A stretch of DNA of 61,935 bases from Rivularia sp. MS3 (GTDB lineage Bacteria; Cyanobacteriota; Cyanobacteriia; Cyanobacteriales; Nostocaceae), in contig JAHCMI010000057.1 of assembly GCA_019192545.1 (NCBI GenBank), positions 1 through 61,935 on the forward strand, given 5' to 3'. Each line of letters begins with the position of its first letter. Positions within the stretch are counted from its first letter, which is position 1. The notes under the pieces were generated by a model. It was not told the origin of the DNA and searched no databases. It saw nothing but the letters and a program-made list of their open reading frames with translations. Shown piece by piece: positions 10,238 to 22,098 of this stretch. The position numbers and the translations under genes were made by a program.

Positions 10238-12232
10238 CTACAAACTGCTAAATGTCAATTCCGCAACTTTTTTTGCTAGTTTACCAGCTTCAATTGGCTT
10301 GGATAAATGTAATGTAAAACCAGACTGTAAAGATTCTCTTTGACTTGTTTCTCCTGCATAAGCAGTTAAAGCAATGGCAGGTATTGCTGCGGCTTTTTGT
10401 GAAGGTAATGCTCGAATTTGACGCATCAAGGTGTGTCCGTTGACTTCCGGCATCGCTATATCGCTAATAAGTAAATCTGGTTTGTTTTGTAAGAATAATT
10501 TAAGTGCTTCTGGTGCAGATGTGGCAGTTTGTACGGAAGCTCCATGATTTTCGAGAACAAACTGCAAGAAATCTAAATTATCTGGCTCATCATCTACTAT
10601 AAGAATATTTAAACCGGCAAAATTTAACTCTATATTGTTTGTGTCTTTAGTTTCATCACTGCTGAGGGCAATAGATGTCAAAGGTATATCAACTGTAAAG
10701 GTTGTACCTTTGCCAATACCGGGACTTTCTACTTGAATATTACCACCGTGAAGTTCTACTAAATGTCTGACAATTGCCAATCCTAATCCCAATCCACCAG
10801 TATTTCTGGTGCTGGAACTATTTTCCTGACGAAAGTAATCAAATACATAAGGTAAAAACTCCGGATTGATTCCTTTACCCGTATCCCGAACTTTTACTCG
10901 AGCGCAATCATTATTTAATTCTGATTGTACATATACTTTTCCTCCCGATGGCGTAAATTTAACTGCATTAGAAAACAAATTCCAGAAAATTTGCTGCAAA
11001 CGGTTGGCATCTCCTTCTACGAACACATTTTCTACAGAAAAATCGGTAATTATCTCCAGAGATTTTGCGTTAGCAGCTAAACGTACAGTTTCAATAGCAG
11101 CTTTAATAATATTTACTAAGTCAACGTTAACGGGGTTAAGCTGTAATTTACCGCGCAATATTCGCGAAACATCAAGCAAATCTTTAATCATTTCTGCTTG
11201 CAAAGAAGCATTTCGTTCGATTGTTTCTAATGCCTTATCGATTCTATTTGCAGGAATTCTATGAGAGCGTAAAAGTTGAGTCCATCCCAAAATTGGATTT
11301 AGAGGAGTTCGCAATTCATGAGAAAGTACCGCTAAAAATTCATCTTTGACGCGGTTTGCAGCTTCGGCTTTTGCTAGTAACTTGGTTCTTTCTAATTCGG
11401 CTTGTTTGGCTTCAGTAATATCTCTTAAAGTAATCAGATTCGCGGGTTTTCCTTGCCAATCTATCTTGACTACACGCATTTGGGCTATAAGTTCTTTTTC
11501 CAATCCAGTAGAGATATCAACTTCGGTTTTATCTTCATCGGCAACGGGAAACCCAAGTACTTCTCCTAAAAGTTCTTCTTCTTTACGGTTAAATAGCTTT
11601 AATGCTGCGGGATTAATAAATCTAACTATTCCTTGTTTGTCTACCACCACCATGCCATCTGGGTTTTTCACAATCAACATCTTTAATTGCTTTTCGCTTT
11701 TTTTCAGCGCTGCTTCTACTTTTTCCCTGCGGGTACTTTCTAGTTGTCTTTGCTGACGCTGCTTTTTTAATTCTATTGATTGATAGAATAAACGCTGCTG
11801 TATTTCTGTTAAGTAAGCATTACATTTTTCTGCTTCAAAATCTTTACATTTCAAAGATTCACTTACACCAAGGGCTTGTTTAAAAAGCAACGGTAGTAGC
11901 TGTAAGTCATTTTTACTTAAATATTCGGTTGCTCCTGCTTTGATGCAGTTTACAGCTTCAAGTGCATTATCGGCACCGTTGACAACTATAAATGGAATAT
12001 CTATATTGTTTTCCGTTAATATTTGTCGAGCTTTTAAAAAATCTATTTTTGAATGCCGATAATCTACTAATACTATCTGCACTTGCGGATTTAAGTTAGC
12101 TAGATAATCTGCTTTGTTTTCGATTCTTTTAACTGCCAGCTTTAATTCAATTTCGCGTGATATTAAAGATAATATTTTTTCGCTTTCTTCGGCAGAATTA
12201 CATAGCAACAATACATTGATTGGAACTGCCAT
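10238..12232 (-). CDS. hybrid sensor histidine kinase with N-terminal receiver-like domain
   Basis: A two-component signalling protein of about 664 residues, cytoplasmic with no membrane segments. Domain order: a receiver-like domain (about 5-120) lacking the usual acidic pair at its start, a coiled linker (about 140-185), a PAS domain (about 186-275), HisKA with the phospho-accepting His in SHELRTP, HATPase_c (GGLGLGLAIV and the N/G boxes), and a complete C-terminal receiver (ILIVDDEPD, Asp in LLISDIAMPE, conserved Lys in LSKPIE). The ATG at 12232 is preferred; a GTG three codons upstream is possible. It lies 230 bases downstream of the kaiC3-like gene on the same strand, so a clock-related role is possible but not shown. 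Confidence 0.88.
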   Translation of the reverse strand: MAVPINVLLLCNSAEESEKILSLISREIELKLAVKRIENKADYLANLNPQVQIVLVDYRHSKIDFLKARQILTENNIDIPFIVVNGADNALEAVNCIKAGATEYLSKNDLQLLPLLFKQALGVSESLKCKDFEAEKCNAYLTEIQQRLFYQSIELKKQRQQRQLESTRREKVEAALKKSEKQLKMLIVKNPDGMVVVDKQGIVRFINPAALKLFNRKEEELLGEVLGFPVADEDKTEVDISTGLEKELIAQMRVVKIDWQGKPANLITLRDITEAKQAELERTKLLAKAEAANRVKDEFLAVLSHELRTPLNPILGWTQLLRSHRIPANRIDKALETIERNASLQAEMIKDLLDVSRILRGKLQLNPVNVDLVNIIKAAIETVRLAANAKSLEIITDFSVENVFVEGDANRLQQIFWNLFSNAVKFTPSGGKVYVQSELNNDCARVKVRDTGKGINPEFLPYVFDYFRQENSSSTRNTGGLGLGLAIVRHLVELHGGNIQVESPGIGKGTTFTVDIPLTSIALSSDETKDTNNIELNFAGLNILIVDDEPDNLDFLQFVLENHGASVQTATSAPEALKLFLQNKPDLLISDIAMPEVNGHTLMRQIRALPSQKAAAIPAIALTAYAGETSQRESLQSGFTLHLSKPIEAGKLAKKVAELTFSSL

Positions 12233-12465
12233 ATATATCACTCAAGGACTAAACAATTTGTTATTGCCAACTGTTAACTCGCTCTAGCATAACTATATTT
12301 TTAACTAATAAAATTAAATATTTTTCGTGCAGGAAGCGAGTAAATTATACGTTAATTTAATTTTATCTATACACTAGAATTAATATCACAATAATTCTTA
12401 AAATTTGTTGAATTTAATAATTATTTATACATTTATTTATATCACTATAAAAGAAAAATATAATG

Positions 12466-13986
12466 TTATTGCTCGTCTTGAAACATTTCATTCAATCTAT
12501 TTACTTCGCTTTCATCTACGTAAGAAGGGTTCCCAGATAAAATACCTATGACGTTGCGGAAGCTTTCACCAATATGCATTCCCCTATCATCAATACTAAA
12601 TTCGCGAATTTGCTTATCATGCGTCGAACCTCGCATTTTAATCACTGCTAACCCCCTCTTAATTTCACCATAAACTTCCACATACCGTAGTAAAATAATT
12701 GAATCGGTAGTTGTGGAAATATGAGATTCTGTAATTGAACTACCGCCTAATAAAGTCGGAGCCGTAGCAGTGTAAAGCCCAGTCATTCCTTTTCCCCTGA
12801 CTGTGGCATTCAAACTAGCAATAAATTCTCGAAAACCATTCAGCGTAGCTACTTTTTCTAAAGCCGTTAAACTATCAATTACTACTCGCTGCGGTTGAAA
12901 CTTCTGTATGACTTCCTGCATTCTAATTAAATGATTTTCTAATCGCGTTGATTCTGGATAGCGAAACAGAATTTTTAACTTTTCATCTGCTTCTGCTTTG
13001 AGAAAATCCATCCCCCATCCCCGCGCATTTCTAATCAATTGATGCCGATTTTCTTCAAAGGCAAAATAAATACAGCGATCGCCATTTTCGATTCCAGCAG
13101 AAATAAACTGAGTGCAGAGCAGAGTTTTACCGGTACCGGTAGCGCCGCTAGCTAAAATAATTGAGTCTCGATAAAAGCCACCGCCACACATTTTATCTAA
13201 TTCCGAGCTGCCGCTGCGAATACGAGTCGTAGATGAGCCTCTATCTTCTGCCGCCATTGCTGAAAGAGGAATAATTACAAATCCTCGATCCGAAATAATA
13301 GTAAAGGGAAACTCCCCCTGCTGATGGGAACTACCACGATACTTGAGAATTTCTAAAGTGCGGCGACGCTTTTCCTCTATCAACACATTTCGTAAAATAA
13401 TCACGTTATCAGCTACATATTCTTCTACTCCATGAGTGCTGATATCGCCGTATTCATGATTGCGCTCTGAAGTTAAAATTGCTGTAGCATTTACATCTCG
13501 CAATGCCGAAGCAATGATAAATAAATCATCCCGAATTTGAGACTTATCGGGTATATAGCTAAAAAGCGCCCCCAAAGAATCCATCGATATTCTACTAGCT
13601 TTCACTTGAGTGCTAGCATAATGAATTCTAGCTAATAAAGGACTTAAATCGTAATTACCGCTCACATAAGGATTGTTACCAGGCTCGGGGGAAGCATCAA
13701 CAAAAATCCATTTACCTTCTTTTTCCCACTTAGCAATATCCCAACCGAAACCGCGCATATTCCGACGAATATTTTTCGGGGATTCTTCAAAAGAAACATA
13801 TACCCCCGTTTCCCCCCGCTTAATTCCTTCTATTAAAAATTGACAACACAATACAGTTTTACCGCTACCGGCACTACCAACTACCAAAGTAGTACGCCCA
13901 ATAGGTAAACCGCCATTCGATATCAAATCGAAGCCTGGAATTCCTGTTTCTAACTTTTCGATATTTTCAGCAGTCTCTTCAGGCAT
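12466..13986 (-). CDS. kaiC3: KaiC-family clock ATPase/kinase, KaiC3-like
   Basis: KaiC forms a hexamer whose autophosphorylation cycle drives circadian timing. The 506-residue protein has two RecA-like domains. CI has Walker A GSAGSGKT (37-44) and the catalytic Glu pair 67-68. CII has Walker A GATGTGKT (281-288) and Glu 311-312. The phosphorylation sites matching Ser431/Thr432 of Synechococcus KaiC are kept (Ser424/Thr425 in SHISTTTD). The C-terminal tail resembles the KaiA-binding A-loop (SFRNVIGILSG). It lies 45 bases after the KaiB-like gene, in one operon with it and the KaiA3-like gene. The KaiC assignment is secure; the KaiC3 subgroup rests on the linked receiver-KaiA gene. Confidence 0.88.
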   Translation of the reverse strand: MPEETAENIEKLETGIPGFDLISNGGLPIGRTTLVVGSAGSGKTVLCCQFLIEGIKRGETGVYVSFEESPKNIRRNMRGFGWDIAKWEKEGKWIFVDASPEPGNNPYVSGNYDLSPLLARIHYASTQVKASRISMDSLGALFSYIPDKSQIRDDLFIIASALRDVNATAILTSERNHEYGDISTHGVEEYVADNVIILRNVLIEEKRRRTLEILKYRGSSHQQGEFPFTIISDRGFVIIPLSAMAAEDRGSSTTRIRSGSSELDKMCGGGFYRDSIILASGATGTGKTLLCTQFISAGIENGDRCIYFAFEENRHQLIRNARGWGMDFLKAEADEKLKILFRYPESTRLENHLIRMQEVIQKFQPQRVVIDSLTALEKVATLNGFREFIASLNATVRGKGMTGLYTATAPTLLGGSSITESHISTTTDSIILLRYVEVYGEIKRGLAVIKMRGSTHDKQIREFSIDDRGMHIGESFRNVIGILSGNPSYVDESEVNRLNEMFQDEQ

Positions 13987-14031
13987 TTCAGAATTTTATA
14001 TTAGATGATACTCTAAACAGTTATTTTAAAT

Positions 14032-14346
14032 TTACTCGCTTAATATATCATGTTTTTTACTGCTAATACCCAGACCGATTAAGACTGTGATCGTGTCAGA
14101 TAAATCTCCAATAATTCTAACTTGTGGTAAGGGAGATTCTCTAATTAAAGTGGGGGTAACGATAATTTTTTCTTTTTCTGCAATATCGGGATTATTTAAC
14201 ACATTTATGATAATGATTTGATATTCATCCCGAAAGTGTTGTTCGCATAATTCTTTAAGGTTAGATATTGCTATATCCGACCTCGGTGTATCTCCTGTTA
14301 CATATAATTTTAGTACATTTTGATTATCCAAACTACTCTTACACAT
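14032..14346 (-). CDS. kaiB3: KaiB-family clock protein, KaiB3-like
   Basis: KaiB binds the KaiC CI ring after a fold switch and sequesters KaiA, which sets the dephosphorylation phase. The 104-residue protein shows the KaiB thioredoxin-like pattern: LKLYVTGDTPRS, then NLKELCEQ, the central INVLNNPDIAE, KIIVTPTLI, and RIIGDLSDTITVLIGLG. Length matches KaiB. The gene lies between the KaiA3-like and KaiC-like genes with gaps of 46 and 45 bases on the same strand, as in canonical kaiABC clusters. The paralogue number is inferred from context; the family is clear. Confidence 0.88.
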   Translation of the reverse strand: MCKSSLDNQNVLKLYVTGDTPRSDIAISNLKELCEQHFRDEYQIIIINVLNNPDIAEKEKIIVTPTLIRESPLPQVRIIGDLSDTITVLIGLGISSKKHDILSE

Positions 14347-14392
14347 TATTAAATTTATATTATCTAAGGTTATTGTAAAAATTAACTGTCCT

Positions 14393-15325
14393 TTAATCAG
14401 CTTCTAAATCTAGTCTATTTTTATCGAGATTAATTTGATTCAATCCGATGAAATATTTTCGGTAATAAGCAGTTAAATAACCCATTAACTGTAAAATTGT
14501 TAAACGTGCTTCTTTAGCATAAGCTTGATATTTTCGAGAATGGTTAGTTTTTTCTTTAATCACGGTGGTATGAATTTCAATTACGTCTTTGGGTGTAGCC
14601 TGCATAAATCCTAATTGTCTTGCTAAAGCGCTGAGTTTTTCGGAGATATTATGCTCTACCTTATAGGCTTGTTCTTCCAAAGATAAGTCCATTATTTCGC
14701 TATAGTTCTGAACTAACTCCGCAAAAATATCCGGTTTACTTTCTCGTAAAGATTCCGAACTAGATAGATTTGCATTTGTACCAGCAGATGTACTAAAAGC
14801 TTCAAGCTGTTCAACTTCTGCCTTCTGTTGTTCTTTTTGCTGCTGATTTAAATTATTTAAATGTTGCTTGCGCTCTATAGCCGAACGAATCGCATAAACT
14901 AGTAAGTTGGTATCAATTTCAGTTTTGTGTAGATATCCGATGGCACCTAATTCTAAAGCTTTGACAGCAGCAGCTTCATCTAAAATGGTATAAACAATAA
15001 TTGGTAAGCTAGGAGCAGCTTCTAGAATTACCGATAAAGTTTTGATTCCCCGACTATCAGTAAGCATCAAGTCCAAAAAAATAACATCAATATTATTTCT
15101 TGCTAACTCCTGCAATCCTTTTTCTAGAGATTGAGCGACAATCGTCTCAAAGCCTTGTTTGAATGAAGGAGATTTTGCTTTAGATAGCAGTCTGCGAAAA
15201 TATTCTATCTCTTCTAATTCATCTTCAATTAAAAGAATTTGGCAACGACGATGCAGCATAAGTTTTATTTTTAACGATTGGTAAACGGCTAAAGCATGTT
15301 TGCCCAAACGGTAAAGCTGATTCAT
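14393..15325 (-). CDS. kaiA3: receiver domain fused to a KaiA-like C-terminal domain (KaiA3-like)
   Basis: The 310-residue protein starts with a true response-regulator receiver: acidic pair Glu34/Asp35, phospho-acceptor Asp85 in FLDLML, Thr113 and Lys134. A Gln/Glu-rich linker (about 155-195) leads to a helical domain (about 197-292). Its pattern D-V-I-E-I-H near 247-252 and R-L-T...Y-R-K near 274-291 matches the KaiC-binding C-terminal bundle of KaiA (VLEIH ... YRLTLID ... YRRS). This is the architecture described for KaiA3 of Synechocystis. Canonical KaiA has a degenerate receiver; here it is intact, so phosphorylation input is possible. A Met at residue 23 is an alternative start. The KaiA similarity is by eye and needs a profile test. 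Confidence 0.72.
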   Translation of the reverse strand: MNQLYRLGKHALAVYQSLKIKLMLHRRCQILLIEDELEEIEYFRRLLSKAKSPSFKQGFETIVAQSLEKGLQELARNNIDVIFLDLMLTDSRGIKTLSVILEAAPSLPIIVYTILDEAAAVKALELGAIGYLHKTEIDTNLLVYAIRSAIERKQHLNNLNQQQKEQQKAEVEQLEAFSTSAGTNANLSSSESLRESKPDIFAELVQNYSEIMDLSLEEQAYKVEHNISEKLSALARQLGFMQATPKDVIEIHTTVIKEKTNHSRKYQAYAKEARLTILQLMGYLTAYYRKYFIGLNQINLDKNRLDLEAD

Positions 15326-15676: not shown

Positions 15677-16777
15677 TTAAACAAATGGTAAGGTAATTAT
15701 AAACTTAGCACCTTTATCGGACTGACTGCGAGCAGAAATTTTTCCTCCATGCCTTTCAATAATTTTGCGGCAAATAGCTAAACCCAACCCCGTACCTTCA
15801 TATTCGCTAGAGTTATGCAACCGCTGACAGGGTTCAAATATTCGTTCTAAGTAAGCTTCATCAAAGCCAATTCCATTATCTGCCACAACTATTTCGTATT
15901 CACCGTTTGATAGATAATTTTGCTCCGTGCTATTTTGATAAATTTTTATAGATAATGGGATTGCTGGCTGGCGATATTTTAAAGAATTGCTTAGGAGGTT
16001 TTGAAATAACTGATACATCTGAGCGGAGTCGGCCAAAATAGTAGGTAGTTTGCCTAACGATACAACCACATCTGCCAAACTATCAGCTTGCAAATCTGAT
16101 ATCACCCCTCGTATAACTTGCTCTAAATTTACCTCTGTAAAAGGTTGCCCTTGAGTCGTAACCAAAGAAAACTGAAGCAAAGCCTCGACAAAACTTTGCA
16201 TTCGATTTCTAATTTTTACAATGCGTTGAAGATAGTCATTTCCTTGCTCGTCCAAAACCTGACTATAATCTTCCTGAAGATATTCTGAAAGAATTTGAAT
16301 TCTGTGCAGTGGTGAGATTAAATCGTGAGACACAACACTGGCAAATTCTTCTAAATCGCTGTTGCTACGTTTTAATTCTGCAAGTAAACTTTTTAATCTC
16401 GCCTCAGCTTGTTTGCGGAAAGTAATATCTTGAATTTGAGCGATAAAGTAGAGCGGTTGCGCTTCGGCATCGCGTACTAAAGAAACACTCAATAAAATCC
16501 ATACAATCCGCCCGCTAGAATGAAAGTAGCGCTTTTCCATTTGGTAAGTACGAATTTCACCTGCAAGCACTCGCCGCACGTAGTTCAAATCTGCTTCTAA
16601 ATCCTCCGGGTGGGTAATCTCCTGAAACGTTTTTTTAAGTAAATCTGTTTCAGAATAGCCAACAATTTCGCATAAAGCACGATTGACTTTTAACCATCGC
16701 CCATCAGGAGCTACAAGTGCCATACCAATTGCAGCATCATTAAAAGCTAAACGAAATAATTCTTCGCTATTAACCAA
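15677..16777 (-). CDS. PAS-domain sensor histidine kinase
   Basis: A cytoplasmic two-component kinase of 366 residues. An N-terminal PAS/PAC domain (about 5-125, ending with the PAC motif IAQIQDITFRKQAEA) is followed by a HisKA domain with the phospho-accepting His in SVVSHDLISPL (about 150) and a HATPase_c domain with N box (QNLLSNSLKYR), G1 (VADNGIGF) and G2 (GTGLGLAIC). The HDLxxPL type H-box resembles that of phytochrome-like cyanobacterial kinases. The start is TTG at 16777, supported by GAGGAG four bases upstream. It is the gene immediately upstream of the kai3-type cluster on the same strand; no cognate regulator is fused to it. Confidence 0.88.
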   Translation of the reverse strand: MVNSEELFRLAFNDAAIGMALVAPDGRWLKVNRALCEIVGYSETDLLKKTFQEITHPEDLEADLNYVRRVLAGEIRTYQMEKRYFHSSGRIVWILLSVSLVRDAEAQPLYFIAQIQDITFRKQAEARLKSLLAELKRSNSDLEEFASVVSHDLISPLHRIQILSEYLQEDYSQVLDEQGNDYLQRIVKIRNRMQSFVEALLQFSLVTTQGQPFTEVNLEQVIRGVISDLQADSLADVVVSLGKLPTILADSAQMYQLFQNLLSNSLKYRQPAIPLSIKIYQNSTEQNYLSNGEYEIVVADNGIGFDEAYLERIFEPCQRLHNSSEYEGTGLGLAICRKIIERHGGKISARSQSDKGAKFIITLPFV

Positions 16778-17409: not shown

Positions 17410-19092
17410 ATGGGACAAGGTTTTTTGCAGATAGGTTTAACCCTGGCTTTAGTGCTAATAATTACGCCAATTTTTGGTAAATACATAGCCAAAGTATTTA
17501 TGGGCAAAACAACGTTGCTCGATAGAGTCATAAATCCATTAGAATTACTTATTTACAAGCTAGCAGACGTAAATCCTCAAGAAAATATGACAGGCAAAGA
17601 ATATGCCTATTGCGTGCTGCAAAGCAACTTATTTATCGGCATTTTGGTGTATTTAATTATTAGCCTTCAAAAGTTTTTGCCGTGGAATCCGAATAATCTG
17701 GGTGCCCCTCGGTGGGATTTAACACTACACACCACAATTTCATTTTTAACTAATACGGGGCAGCAACATTACTTAGGAGAAAAAACCCTTAGCCATTTTA
17801 GCACTACGGCTGGTTTAACCTTTTTGATGTTTGTTTCAGCAGGCACGGGTTTAGCAATTGGCATTGCCTTTATTCGCGGTTTGACGGGCAGACCTTTAGG
17901 AAATTATTATGCGGATCTAATCAAAGCAATAACCCGTATATTGCTACCAATTTCTATTGTGGGAGCCATTTTATTATTAGCTCAAGGAGTACCGCAAACC
18001 TTAGCGGCACCTTTAACAGTAGAAACCTTAGAAGGAAGAACTCAGTATATTGCCACAGGTCCGGTAGCATCTTTTGAAATTATTAAACTATTAGGTACAA
18101 ATGGCGGTGGTTTTTTTGGTGCAAATTCCGCTCACCCCTTTGAAAATCCTAATAGTTTTACTAACTTAATCGAAATTATCGCCATGATGTCTATCCCAGC
18201 AGCGATGATTTTTGTGTATGGAGCATTTTCCAATAATATTAAACAAGCATGGCGGCTGTTTTGGATGATATTTCTTATCTTCCTAGCTTTATTTTGGATA
18301 ACAGCAGTTGGAGAATTTCAAGGAAATCCTTTAGTAAATTCTAATTTAGGATTTAACCAACCTAATTTAGAAGGAAAAGAAGTTCGCTTTGGATGGGCAC
18401 AAACAGCATTATGGGCGATTGTAACCACCGCAACCATGAATGGTGCAGTGAATGGAATGCATGATTCCCTGATGCCTGCTGGAGGTTTTGCCACCTTATT
18501 GAGTATGTTTTTGCACGTAATTTGGGGTGGAATCGGAACCGGAATAATTTACTTATTAATTTATCAATATTTAACCGCATTTTGGGCGGGTTTAATGATA
18601 GGTAGAACTCCGGAATTTTTCGGACGCAAAATCACTAAATTTTCAATACTTTTAGCGAGTTTAGTCATATTAATTCATCCTATTGCTGTATTGATTCCTA
18701 GCGCAATAGCTTTAGCTTATCCTATATCCTTATCGGGAATCAGCAATCCCGGCTTTCACGGTGTATCTCAAGTTGTATACGAATATATATCAGCTAGTAC
18801 GAATAATGGTTCCGGCTTTGAAGGCTTGATAGACGGGACATTCTGGTGGAATTTAAGTACTTCGCTGACTATGTTAATAGGACGATACATTACCATATTC
18901 GCCGTCTTACTTTTAGCGGACATTATGGCACGTACAAAACCACTACCCGAGATTCCTGCTACCCTAAAAACCGACACAGTATTATTTAACAGTCTTAGCG
19001 CTGGAGTAATTTTTATTTTAAGTTTTCTAATTTTCTTCCCTGTTTTAGTAAATGGTCCCTTAGCGGAAGGTTTGAGACTCGCAGCACAGTGA
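17410..19092 (+). CDS. kdpA: potassium-transporting ATPase subunit KdpA
   Basis: The channel-like K+-translocating subunit of the high-affinity KdpFABC uptake pump in the plasma membrane. The 560-residue protein matches the usual length (557 in E. coli) and has about ten membrane segments. Selectivity-filter-like loops are seen, for example TNTGQQHY (about 116-123) and [15 protein letters not shown] (about 230-244). The start ATG at 17410 gives the typical N terminus. It is the first gene of kdpA-kdpB-kdpC on the plus strand. Expression is expected to be induced by low K+, but no KdpD or KdpE gene lies in this window. Confidence 0.95.
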
Positions 19093-19167
19093 ACAGTTAA
19101 CAATTACTAATTACCAACTAAAAATTAATATTTCCCCAACTTACTCATTTTTCTTATTCTGCTTCCC

Positions 19168-21279
19168 ATGCCTATGAACCCAGTCGCGACTACCTCCAAA
19201 TCTACACTTGCCACTTCTAATCCGAAAGAACTTCGTTCTTCACGTAAAAAAGTCAAGGCAAATAAAAAAGGTCTTTATCGTAGAGCAATAAAAGACTCTT
19301 TTATCAAATTAAATCCTAAATATACTATTAGAAATCCCGTCTTGGTAGTAGTTTGGGTAAGCTGTCTTATTACCTTCACGGCGACAATTTTTCCGACATT
19401 ATTTGGCTCGAAACCAACTGCAAATGCCCAAATTTTTAACGGCGCAGTTACACTAATTTTATTTTTAACATTACTGCTAGCTAACTTTGCCGAAGCTTTT
19501 GCTCAAAGTCGCGGCAAGGCACAGGCTGATGTATTACGTTCGATTAAATCCGATATTAACGCCAAACAACTTTTTGCTGACGGCACCATTTCTGAAGTTC
19601 CCGCTACAAATTTGCAACGTGGCGACACGGTGTATGTTGTAGCCGGTGATATTATTCCTACCGACGGCGAAGTAATCATGGGCGCTGCCAGCGTTGACGA
19701 AGGAGCAATCACAGGAGAAACAGCACCAGTTCTTAAAGAAGCCGGTTCGGATGTTGCTAGTTATGTTACCGGTGGCAGCCGTATTATTTCGGATGAATTG
19801 ATAGTTAGAATTACGGTCGATCCAGATAAAGGGTTTATCAACCGGATGATTCATATTATTGAAAGGAGAGAACGTAAAAAAACACCGAACGAATCGACTC
19901 TAACAGTTTTACTCGCCTTAATCAGCTTAATATTTTTATCAACGATCGCAACTTTTCCGGCACTAGCTTATTACATTAAAACTCCTATTAGCGTACCTAT
20001 ATTAGTAGCGATTTTTGTGGCATTAATACCGACAACTGTTGGCAGTTTGCTCAGTGCTACCACTATTGGAGGTATGGATCGGGTTGCTCAATTAAATTTA
20101 ATTGCCACCTCTGCTAGAGCTATAGAAGCCTGTGGAGATGTCAATACTTTGATCCTCGATAAAACAGGAACTGTAACCAGAGGCAACCGTTTAGCAGATG
20201 GTTTTATTCCAATTAACGGTCATACAATGGCTGAAATTGCTTATGTAGCTTTAGCAGCAAGTGTATATGACGATACTTCAGAAGGAAAATCAATCGTTCG
20301 CTTAGCGCAAAAATTAGGAGCAAGAATTGATTTTGATTATCAGGCGGCTTTATCGATAAAATTTAGTGCTAAAAGCAGAATAGGCGGTACCGATTTACCT
20401 AATGGTTCGATGGTTCGTAAAGGTGCCGTAGATGCAATCAAAAACTTCGTGCGATTGCAGGGTGGGGAATTTTCATCAGAACTTAATTCAGCTTACGAAA
20501 TGGTATCTAGACAAGGAGGTACGCCGTTAGCTGTATGTATGAATGAGGAAATTTACGGCATTATTTACCTAAAAGATAATCTAAAACCAGGAATACGCGA
20601 ACGTTTCGGACAATTACGAAGACTCGGGGTGCGTACCATCATGATTACTGGTGATAATCACATAACTACTTCTGTAATTGCTAAAGAAGCCGGAGTCAAA
20701 GAATTTATTGCCGAAGCAACCCCCGAAAATAAAATCGCTGTGGTTCAAAGAGAACAAGCCGAAGGAAAACTAGTTGCAATGACAGGGGATGGAACAAATG
20801 ATGCAGCAGCTTTAGCTCAAGCAAATGTTGCAGTTGCCATGAACAACGGAACTCAAGCAGCAAAAGAAGCAGCAAATATCATCGATTTGGACTCCGACCC
20901 GACAAAATTAATCGATATCATCGGCATCGGTAAACAAGTACTCATGACTCGCGGTGCTTTAATCACCTTCTCAGTGGCAAACAATATAGCTAAGTATTTT
21001 GCAATTATCCCACTGGTATTTGCTTCGGGGAGCATTAACCAATTAAACGTCATGAACTTGACAAGTATTAATTCTGCCGTGCTGTCAGTACTAATTTACA
21101 ACGCATTAATTATTCCGGCATTAATACCTTTAGCGCTCAAAGGTGTACCATTTCAAGTAATGGCACCCAATCAACTTTTGCAACGCAATTTTTTGATTTA
21201 TGGCTCGGCAGGATTAATTATTCCATTTATTGTCATTAAGTTAATAGACCTAATAATTTCTCTAACAGTTTTAGCTTAA
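19168..21279 (+). CDS. kdpB: potassium-transporting ATPase ATP-binding subunit KdpB
   Basis: The P-type ATPase subunit that powers K+ uptake by KdpFABC. The 703-residue protein has the actuator motif TGET (about 178-181), the phosphorylation motif DKTGT with Asp331, the nucleotide-domain KGAVDAI motif, and the hinge TGDGTNDAAAL. Membrane helices flank these domains. It is about 20 residues longer than the E. coli subunit because of a basic N-terminal extension (residues 1-45), as in other cyanobacteria. It follows kdpA by 75 bases. A second Met two codons on is an equally good start. Confidence 0.95.
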   Translation: MPMNPVATTSKSTLATSNPKELRSSRKKVKANKKGLYRRAIKDSFIKLNPKYTIRNPVLVVVWVSCLITFTATIFPTLFGSKPTANAQIFNGAVTLILFLTLLLANFAEAFAQSRGKAQADVLRSIKSDINAKQLFADGTISEVPATNLQRGDTVYVVAGDIIPTDGEVIMGAASVDEGAITGETAPVLKEAGSDVASYVTGGSRIISDELIVRITVDPDKGFINRMIHIIERRERKKTPNESTLTVLLALISLIFLSTIATFPALAYYIKTPISVPILVAIFVALIPTTVGSLLSATTIGGMDRVAQLNLIATSARAIEACGDVNTLILDKTGTVTRGNRLADGFIPINGHTMAEIAYVALAASVYDDTSEGKSIVRLAQKLGARIDFDYQAALSIKFSAKSRIGGTDLPNGSMVRKGAVDAIKNFVRLQGGEFSSELNSAYEMVSRQGGTPLAVCMNEEIYGIIYLKDNLKPGIRERFGQLRRLGVRTIMITGDNHITTSVIAKEAGVKEFIAEATPENKIAVVQREQAEGKLVAMTGDGTNDAAALAQANVAVAMNNGTQAAKEAANIIDLDSDPTKLIDIIGIGKQVLMTRGALITFSVANNIAKYFAIIPLVFASGSINQLNVMNLTSINSAVLSVLIYNALIIPALIPLALKGVPFQVMAPNQLLQRNFLIYGSAGLIIPFIVIKLIDLIISLTVLA

Positions 21280-21334
21280 TCAAAATTAGCAGATGCATAG
21301 ATGAACAATACTAAATTGGTTAGTTAGAAAAAGC

Positions 21335-21352
21335 AGTAGCAAGTAGTAAGTA
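21335..21352. repeat. short STRR (AGTAGCA type) between kdpB and kdpC
   Basis: AGCAGTAGCAAGTAGTAAGT is made of degenerate heptamers and lies in the 216-base gap between kdpB and kdpC, where some cyanobacteria carry kdpG. Confidence 0.5.
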
Positions 21353-21495
21353 AGAAATTATTCTTCACTCTTTTCCTCGCTCTACCCTCTCTCCCCATCT
21401 TCCTCATCCTTATCCTTACTCATGATTTTTGATAGGACAAAACACTACTTGCTCCCGACTGCTTTAAATCAAAATCTTAAATTTGGAATTGTATT

Positions 21496-22098
21496 ATGTT
21501 GAAACTTAGATCGATTGCGAGAGCGGTTCGCGTGAGCTTGATATTATGGTTAATTACTGCCATTATTTATCCATTATTTATACTTTTAATTGCTCAAATT
21601 CCCTTATTTCAATATCAGGCCAAAGGAAGTATAAGAGTTGACTTGTACAACGAACCAATTGGTTCGGCTTTAATCGGTCAAACATTTACATCTGAAGAAT
21701 ATTTTCATAGCCGCCCGAGTAGCGTGTTATACAGTCAAGGAGCAAAAGCCAAACCTACCGGCATCTCGGGTTCAAGCAATCTTGCTCCTAGCAACCCAAT
21801 ATTGCTTAAGCGAATATTAGAAACAACCAACGAACTTCAAGAAGAAAGCATAGAACCACGTGCCGATTTAATTTATACTTCCGGTTCGGGATTAGATCCC
21901 CATATTACATTTAGATCGGCCATGCAGCAGTTAGATAGAGTTGCCAATGCTCGGAATTTAAGACCTGACGAAATTTATCCTATTATTATCGAAAATACCC
22001 AAGGCAGATTTTTAAACATATTTGGCGAACCTGGAGTCAACGTTCTGAAATTAAACTACGCTCTCGATCTCAAAGAAATCAGCCGCAGGCAAAATTAA
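21496..22098 (+). CDS. kdpC: potassium-transporting ATPase subunit KdpC
   Basis: The single-span chaperone-like subunit that helps ATP binding by KdpB. The 200-residue protein has one N-terminal membrane helix (about 14-36) followed by the KdpC signatures: GSALIGQTF near 52, YFHSRPS near 70, SGSSNLAPSNP near 90, and the ADLIYTSGSGLDPHI motif near 122. Length is close to E. coli KdpC (190). It follows kdpB after 216 bases without an intervening kdpG, and no kdpD follows: the next gene is anmK. Confidence 0.94.
   Translation: MLKLRSIARAVRVSLILWLITAIIYPLFILLIAQIPLFQYQAKGSIRVDLYNEPIGSALIGQTFTSEEYFHSRPSSVLYSQGAKAKPTGISGSSNLAPSNPILLKRILETTNELQEESIEPRADLIYTSGSGLDPHITFRSAMQQLDRVANARNLRPDEIYPIIIENTQGRFLNIFGEPGVNVLKLNYALDLKEISRRQN

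Follow-up and report, generated by a model that had tools for sequence, protein, structure and literature searches.

A KaiA3-KaiB3-KaiC3-type clock locus with two neighbouring histidine kinases in Rivularia sp. MS3

Results

Gene content of the kai3 locus

The window, by which we mean the whole 61,935-nucleotide stretch analysed here (contig JAHCMI010000057.1, positions 1 to 61,935, assembly GCA_019192545.1 of the cyanobacterium Rivularia sp. MS3, genome G000 in our set), carries a clock gene cluster of the kaiA3-kaiB3-kaiC3 type on its minus strand. A first-pass annotation had described three minus-strand genes separated by 46 and 45 bases, in agreement with the coordinates of the open reading frames (ORFs). 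Absent from that annotation were the histidine kinase genes on either side, HK366 upstream of kaiA3 and HK667 downstream of kaiC3, and these flanking kinases are the informative part of the locus. The five genes are:

kaiA3, 14393..15259, minus strand: intact receiver (E/D-D-T-K set) and KaiA-like C-terminal domain; 288 amino acids from the revised start
kaiB3, 14032..14346, minus strand: 104 amino acids; PF07689, E 1.3e-22; adjoins kaiC3 or HK667 in relatives
kaiC3, 12466..13986, minus strand: 506 amino acids; two ATPase domains; Ser424/Thr425; tail motif EVNRLNEMF; KaiC3 clade, support 100/100
HK667, 10238..12241, minus strand: hybrid histidine kinase, degenerate receiver - PAS - HisKA - HATPase - intact receiver; 224 bases 3' of kaiC3
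HK366, 15677..16777, minus strand: histidine kinase, PAS - HisKA - HATPase; 5' of kaiA3

The Pfam match listed above confirms the earlier identification of KaiB, and two PF06745 stretches (E 1.9e-120) together with Ser424 and Thr425 confirm that of a full KaiC with both ATPase domains. In a KaiC tree, KaiC3 (24 rows) and KaiC1 (16 rows) are split with support of 100/100; the label KaiC3 is based on linkage or co-occurrence with kaiA3, and the tree left out KaiC2 and has no named Synechocystis record. KaiB3 is named from its place and best-hit identity. The KaiC3 clade, the same gene order in other cyanobacteria and weak KaiA-like matches of the C-terminal domain bear out the kaiA3B3C3-type assignment of the first pass. 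The same five genes are present in Calothrix parasitica NIES-267. Among the three full clusters compared, the ratios of nonsynonymous to synonymous substitution rates (dN/dS) are 0.06-0.25 across the five genes, which indicates purifying selection on all of them. The four gaps between HK366, kaiA3, kaiB3, kaiC3 and HK667 contain no terminator-like site; such sites numbered 9 versus 4.9 in shuffles, and promoter-like sites were no commoner than in shuffles (27 versus 27.7).

HK667 adjoins kaiC3 in one KaiC3 clade

The N-terminal 140 residues of HK667 reach 28.2 bits with the receiver profile PF00072, under the cut-off of 30.2, and lack the acid pair; Pfam gives them no match to the KaiB-like PF07689. 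Searched without regard to HK667, kaiC3 occurs in 14 of 217 genomes of the family (E<=1e-170), and in all 14 the next ORF on the same strand is HK667, at a distance of 90-312 bases. Orthologues of HK667 (>600 bits; next best match 471) occur in 18 of the 217 genomes, that of G437 without its N-terminus. Four genomes outside the family, among the 388 of the order sample, match HK667 at E<=1e-145, and three of these, which belong to other families and were picked by HK667, have kaiC3. In G605 and G672 the kinase gene follows kaiC3 after 24 and 26 bases, and in G688 its N-terminus lies about 90 bases after kaiC3 near a contig end, with the remainder starting another contig. In G735 (assembly 89% complete), HK667 stands close to the beginning of its contig, and the genome gave no match of the KaiC3 type (best KaiC 48%).

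The 17 KaiC3 proteins with an adjoining HK667, 14 from the family and three others, form one clade (100/100). Downstream of the ten KaiC3 genes outside this clade, no kinase motif or match was found (0/10) in the 1.5 kb read for five of them and the 4 kb read for the other five. Among the 14, the HK667 and KaiC3 trees have no starred split in conflict, as judged by eye. Per genome, we scored five (family) or three (order) candidates for HK667, nine for HK366 and up to seven for kaiC3; since only the best first-look candidates were scored, orthologues may be missed. The kaiC3/HK667 genomes outside the family came to us via HK667 or kaiA3; the clade may therefore include further kaiC3 loci there that lack HK667.

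HK366 and the receiver of KaiA3

The original kaiA3 ORF covers 14393-15325 on the minus strand (310 amino acids), and the receiver residues claimed for it in the first pass, E34, D35, D85, T113 and K134, are all present. Its start is probably at Met23 (15259), giving a protein of 288 amino acids, because the congener G539 has ACT at the position equivalent to the window's ATG and no start codon in the open stretch upstream of the Met23 equivalent, and G537 has two stop codons just upstream of it. On this comparison we rejected the start at 15325 and the Asp85 numbering; the acceptor therefore becomes Asp63. The corresponding residue of the Synechocystis KaiA3 receiver is D65 (PMC11372060). The receiver of the window protein matches PF00072 at E 4.8e-15.

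Our sample of kaiA3 comprises 24 genomes (25 rows; G131 appeared twice and one row was dropped). The acceptor Asp is kept in 15 of the 24 and lost in nine, and the whole E/D-D-T/S-K set is found in nine. An intact receiver is thus a property of the lineage. In the published comparison, the acceptor is conserved in KaiA3 except in Pleurocapsa and Microcystis (PMC11372060).

HK366, which has no receiver of its own, precedes kaiA3 in all three family genomes with kaiA3. Relatives of HK366 also occur in two genomes without a kaiA3 match, G437 and G542; the latter (84% complete, contig ending at HK366) was excluded from the architecture counts. Elsewhere, distant kinase matches (25-33% to HK667) lie no more than four ORFs from kaiA3: loci L059 and L060 have one after kaiB3, and L059 and L047 have one upstream. 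The kinase after kaiB3 in the former two (L059:10531-11793, L060:7737-8993) is a different histidine kinase of 418-420 amino acids, with kaiC3 elsewhere in the genome. These two genomes of one genus possibly represent an independent recruitment of a kinase to kaiA3B3.

The KaiC3 tail motif in genomes with and without kaiA3

The C-terminal tail of canonical KaiC is the docking site of KaiA. A tail motif, E-[VILF]-[DEN]-R-L-x-x-[LM]-F, occurs in 15 of 15 KaiC3 proteins from kaiA3 genomes versus 2 of 12 from genomes without kaiA3; G672 was counted as kaiA3-less from its locus alone. The association has a Fisher p of 8e-6, with kinship ignored. For KaiC1, the KaiA-contact residues are reported to be less conserved in strains without KaiA (PMC5520375).

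Distribution and erosion of the module

Within the family, kaiA3 occurs in 3 of 217 genomes, all in the genus of the window and one of them that of Calothrix parasitica NIES-267. In a sample of the phylum, a match to the KaiA3 domain (E<=0.01) is present in 31 of 386 genomes, and some of these matches are not kaiA3. A single-protein scan of genome contigs found only Calothrix parasitica besides a Halobacillus match, which we dropped as receiver-only. kaiC3 directly follows kaiA3-kaiB3 in 8 of the 24 kaiA3 genomes; 11 of the 16 others come from two genera.

In G305 and G538, of the same genus as the window, kaiB3-kaiC3-HK667 is retained between genes that we take to be kdpA-like and priA-like. 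Between the kdpA-like gene and kaiB3, both genomes keep remnants of two genes, HK366 at the protein level (interrupted by stops; E 5e-4 to 0.003) and kaiA3 at the DNA level (E 7e-10 and 1e-14). In this pair, dN/dS is 0.21 for kaiC3, 0.38 for kaiB3 and 0.12 for HK667, rough ratios over short distances, and the full clusters give 0.06-0.20 for kaiC3 and kaiB3. The kai genes of the pair thus look relaxed, whereas HK667 does not. The arrangement kaiB3-kaiC3-HK667 without a kaiA3 match recurs in nine more genomes, which come from three other genera. The presence of kaiA3 changes three times on the KaiC3 tree, which cannot tell gain from loss; loss is documented by remnants in genus g1 only.

Other genomes hold different parts of the module. 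G541 has HK667 and a remnant of HK366, without kaiB3-kaiC3. In G437, HK366-like and HK667-like genes stand side by side with no kai3 genes adjoining, and G540 has no match to either kaiC3 or HK667. In G544 and G543 (L145:7736-10128, L146:7091-9482), kaiB3 lies directly beside HK667, and no KaiC exceeds 49% identity to KaiC3, which suggests that KaiB3, and not only KaiC3, matters to HK667. G183 and G268 (L030, L031) carry short or broken kaiA3-like remnants with frames of 141 and 135 amino acids and, in L031, stops; KaiC1 is the sole KaiC found in these genomes at E<=1e-40. These remnants may be further losses of the system.

Beside the clock locus of the window, on the opposite strand, lie ORFs (17410-22098) that presumably correspond to kdpA, kdpB and kdpC. 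A kdpA-like ORF stands beside the locus in 7 of 7 genus members read, G540 being left out; two of those contigs extend no further.

Other clock proteins and KaiA3-like domains

The window genome also has canonical kaiABC, on contig C98. Its KaiA is short, a 117-amino-acid open frame, which leaves KaiA3 as the one KaiA identified here that carries an input domain; single-domain KaiA is described for Nostocales (PMC8113500). Four KaiB domains in the genome exceed the cut-off, in KaiB1, KaiB3, a kinase of 404 amino acids and a fusion of 279 amino acids. The kinase, on contig C85, is one that we take to be SasA-like. In the fusion (contig C39, L112:3178-4014), the KaiB domain is C-terminal, and the N-terminal part has no Pfam match at E<=0.05.

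Four genomes of one family (G240, G321, G236 and G325) encode proteins of 584, 1164, 296 and 691 amino acids (L040:9777-11528, L041:6258-9749, L042:9828-10715 and L043:7856-9928) whose terminal domain resembles the C-terminus of KaiA3 (E 1e-11 to 2e-19). In the three of these proteins that were compared with Pfam, PAS domains and no KaiA match at E<=0.05 were found, and at E<=1e-40 none of the four genomes matches KaiC. Domains of the KaiA3 type may thus also serve outside clocks.

Discussion

The chimera of receiver and KaiA, its phosphorylatable Asp and an in vitro KaiA3B3C3 oscillator are already published (PMC11372060). According to the same source, kaiA3 is upstream of kaiB3 in all cyanobacteria analysed, and kaiC3 usually comes next, except in Synechocystis and Microcystis. 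The first-pass annotation had presented the clustered kaiC3 and the intact receiver as unusual; with both described there, we abandoned them as novelties. What is new is the kinase-linked setting of the cluster. The window shares with the Synechocystis sp. PCC 6803 system a receiver and KaiA-like chimera upstream of kaiB3, the Ser-Thr phosphosites and the phosphorylatable Asp, and with KaiA3-KaiB3-KaiC3 systems as described the canonical kaiABC in the genome and the usual kaiA3-kaiB3-kaiC3 order (PMC11372060). It differs in its two same-strand flanking histidine kinases, whereas in Synechocystis, according to that paper, kaiC3 lies apart and no cognate kinase or output is known. The KaiC3 output and the kinase of the KaiA3 receiver were named as unidentified in 2024 (PMC11372060), and the output likewise in 2020 (PMC6989803). 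We found no kinase linkage of the KaiC3 cluster in the open-licence papers of PMC, supplements excluded.

SasA and CikA are, like the proposed role of HK667, histidine kinases linked to a clock. CikA carries a degenerate receiver. HK667 differs from SasA in that it lacks a KaiB-like N-terminus, where Pfam finds a receiver instead, and from both in the N-terminal place of its degenerate receiver, in a gene beside kaiC3 and in the presence of a separate SasA-like protein in the genome. Parallels in gene arrangement exist in non-cyanobacterial bacteria. In most bacteria, cyanobacteria being the exception, genes for signalling, often kinases, are reported close to kaiC or after it; in Ramlibacter and others a histidine kinase gene follows kaiC, and the N-terminal domain of the Ramlibacter kinase has been likened to a receiver and to SasA (PMC3164672). 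The kaiBC-kinase operon of Rhodobacter likewise has a kaiC-linked histidine kinase (PMC5520375). Unlike in the rule given in PMC3164672, the arrangement holds here for one cyanobacterial kaiC3 clade, and its kinase is a hybrid one whose last domain is an intact receiver; the kaiC3-HK667 clade thus breaks the cyanobacterial exception.

We consider it probable, with some reserve, that the locus encodes a KaiA3-KaiB3-KaiC3 oscillator of the published type, which in this branch is assembled in one locus with two-component partners of its own. This reading starts from what sequence comparison provides, namely the gene identities, the adjacency of kaiC3 and HK667, the loss of HK366 together with kaiA3 in one branch, the loss of the tail motif in 10 of 12 kaiA3-less cases and purifying selection on the five genes in the three full clusters; the protein contacts, the phosphotransfers and the direction of signalling are what we infer. 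KaiA3 would dock to the C-terminal tail of KaiC3 and drive phosphorylation of Ser424/Thr425, and KaiB3 would reverse it, giving a roughly daily cycle such as that shown for the Synechocystis proteins (PMC11372060). HK667 would read the state of KaiB3/KaiC3, probably via its degenerate N-terminal receiver, and pass phosphate from its histidine to the C-terminal receiver and on to a downstream regulator. HK366 would phosphorylate the intact receiver of KaiA3 and so bring a signal into the clock. HK667 appears to be the best candidate for the output (or input) of KaiC3, because it is a constant neighbour with intact kinase and phosphorelay parts and is kept where kaiA3 is absent. HK366 is a candidate kinase of the KaiA3 receiver, since it has no receiver of its own, its gene precedes that of KaiA3 with its intact receiver, and the two are present and lost together in one genus. 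Possible, although somewhat doubtful to us, is the bolder form of this reading, a self-contained five-gene module in which HK366 passes an environmental signal to the KaiA3 receiver, KaiA3B3C3 provides the timing and HK667 reads the clock for a phosphorelay of its own, apart from SasA-RpaA, and in which several lineages have shed KaiA3 and its kinase, leaving a KaiB3-KaiC3-HK667 timer.

A number of observations weigh against these proposals. HK667 persists without kaiC3 in G541, G543, G544 and G437 and is therefore not strictly tied to KaiC3, and the 14 of 14 adjacencies are not 14 independent events because of shared descent. HK366 beside kaiA3 is confined to one genus, and its joint loss with kaiA3 was probably one event. 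Similarity to HK366 is 43% over 386 amino acids for the kinase that precedes kaiA3 in G605 and 44-45% for unlinked PAS kinases of the family; as this is the same level, we rejected the G605 kinase as a proven orthologue. At the 21 kaiA3 loci read outside the genus, no close relative of HK366 or HK667 was found within four ORFs of kaiA3; these loci hold only distant matches, and the idea of kinases conserved around kaiA3 in all cyanobacteria was given up. Concerning the KaiC3 tail, the motif was defined after the alignment had been seen, the kaiA3-less genomes G453 and G454 keep it, and only three independent contrasts are available, of which, on average, 2.8 point the same way and none points the other way (sign test p 0.25). 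On the C-terminal domain of KaiA3, PF07688 matches the window domain alone at E 0.0048, and the 17.5 bits fall under the Pfam cut-off of 22.2. An AlphaFold2 model of KaiA3 from two sequences has a mean predicted local distance difference test score (pLDDT) of 44.9, with residues 178-310 below 50.

This domain is a weak KaiA by sequence, and the assignment of KaiA3 is carried by gene order, by the clade of its KaiC and by what has been published on the biochemistry of Synechocystis KaiA3 (PMC11372060). The whole window protein has no PF07688 match at E<=1, and the best 60 of 137 PDB rows for KaiA3 alone all align the receiver part, none of them KaiA. If the domain were instead an RsbU_N-like partner-switching domain, KaiA3 would have another target. 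Matches of RsbU_N to 8 of 16 homologous domains at E<=1 (best E 0.0076) speak for this, as do the four genomes that have no KaiC match at E<=1e-40 yet encode PAS proteins ending in a similar domain, but PF07688 matches 13 of the 16 with a better best E (0.0035). In a PDB profile search with the 16 homologues, KaiA provides the best three of six matches, though weak ones (E 0.1-0.25), and hhalign of the domain profile with KaiA gives E 0.0005 with a probability of only 31%. Two further points count against it: 10 of the 12 kaiA3-less cases lack the tail motif of KaiC3, and in Synechocystis phosphorylation of KaiC3 is promoted by KaiA3 (PMC11372060). We regard a partner-switching domain as very improbable.

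It is rather unlikely, in our judgement, that the two kinases are neighbours without a functional link to a published kaiA3B3C3 system, held in place by slow rearrangement. Kinases are abundant in large cyanobacterial genomes, with more than 200 first-look histidine kinase candidates in the window genome, and the four genomes with HK667 and without kaiC3 speak for this view. However, the kaiB3-kaiC3-HK667 block is intact although its chromosomal neighbours vary, being flanked by kdpA-like and priA-like genes in genus g1 and by others in g147, g157, g162, G605 and G672, and in G543 and G544 kaiB3 and HK667 still adjoin where kaiC3 is absent. The functions of the kinases could also be arranged differently from our proposal, HK667 being an input that phosphorylates the KaiA3 receiver or resets KaiC3, with HK366 as an accessory sensor of the same relay. 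The adjoining HK366-like and HK667-like genes of G437 may form one such relay; as HK667 is kept with kaiB3-kaiC3 in 11 family genomes without a kaiA3 match, KaiA3 alone cannot be its target, and we hold this arrangement to be unlikely. We give a similarly low probability to a KaiC3 system that in this lineage is not an oscillator of its own and acts as an hourglass or in support of the canonical clock. The canonical kaiABC of the window genome, the absence of kaiA3 in three separate branches that retain kaiB3-kaiC3 and the higher dN/dS of kaiC3 and kaiB3 in G305/G538 are in line with it; against it, the three kai genes of the window genome are under purifying selection, the tail motif is intact, and the Synechocystis KaiA3B3C3 proteins oscillate in vitro (PMC11372060).

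For the favoured reading, an oscillator of the published type with two-component partners of its own, the conserved neighbours supply one candidate each for the output of KaiC3 and for the kinase of the KaiA3 receiver. Both candidates are present in a named strain, Calothrix parasitica NIES-267, and are open to direct tests. Three branches naturally lack kaiA3, in most cases with a decayed KaiC3 tail, and provide controls for the contribution of KaiA to a KaiB-KaiC timer.

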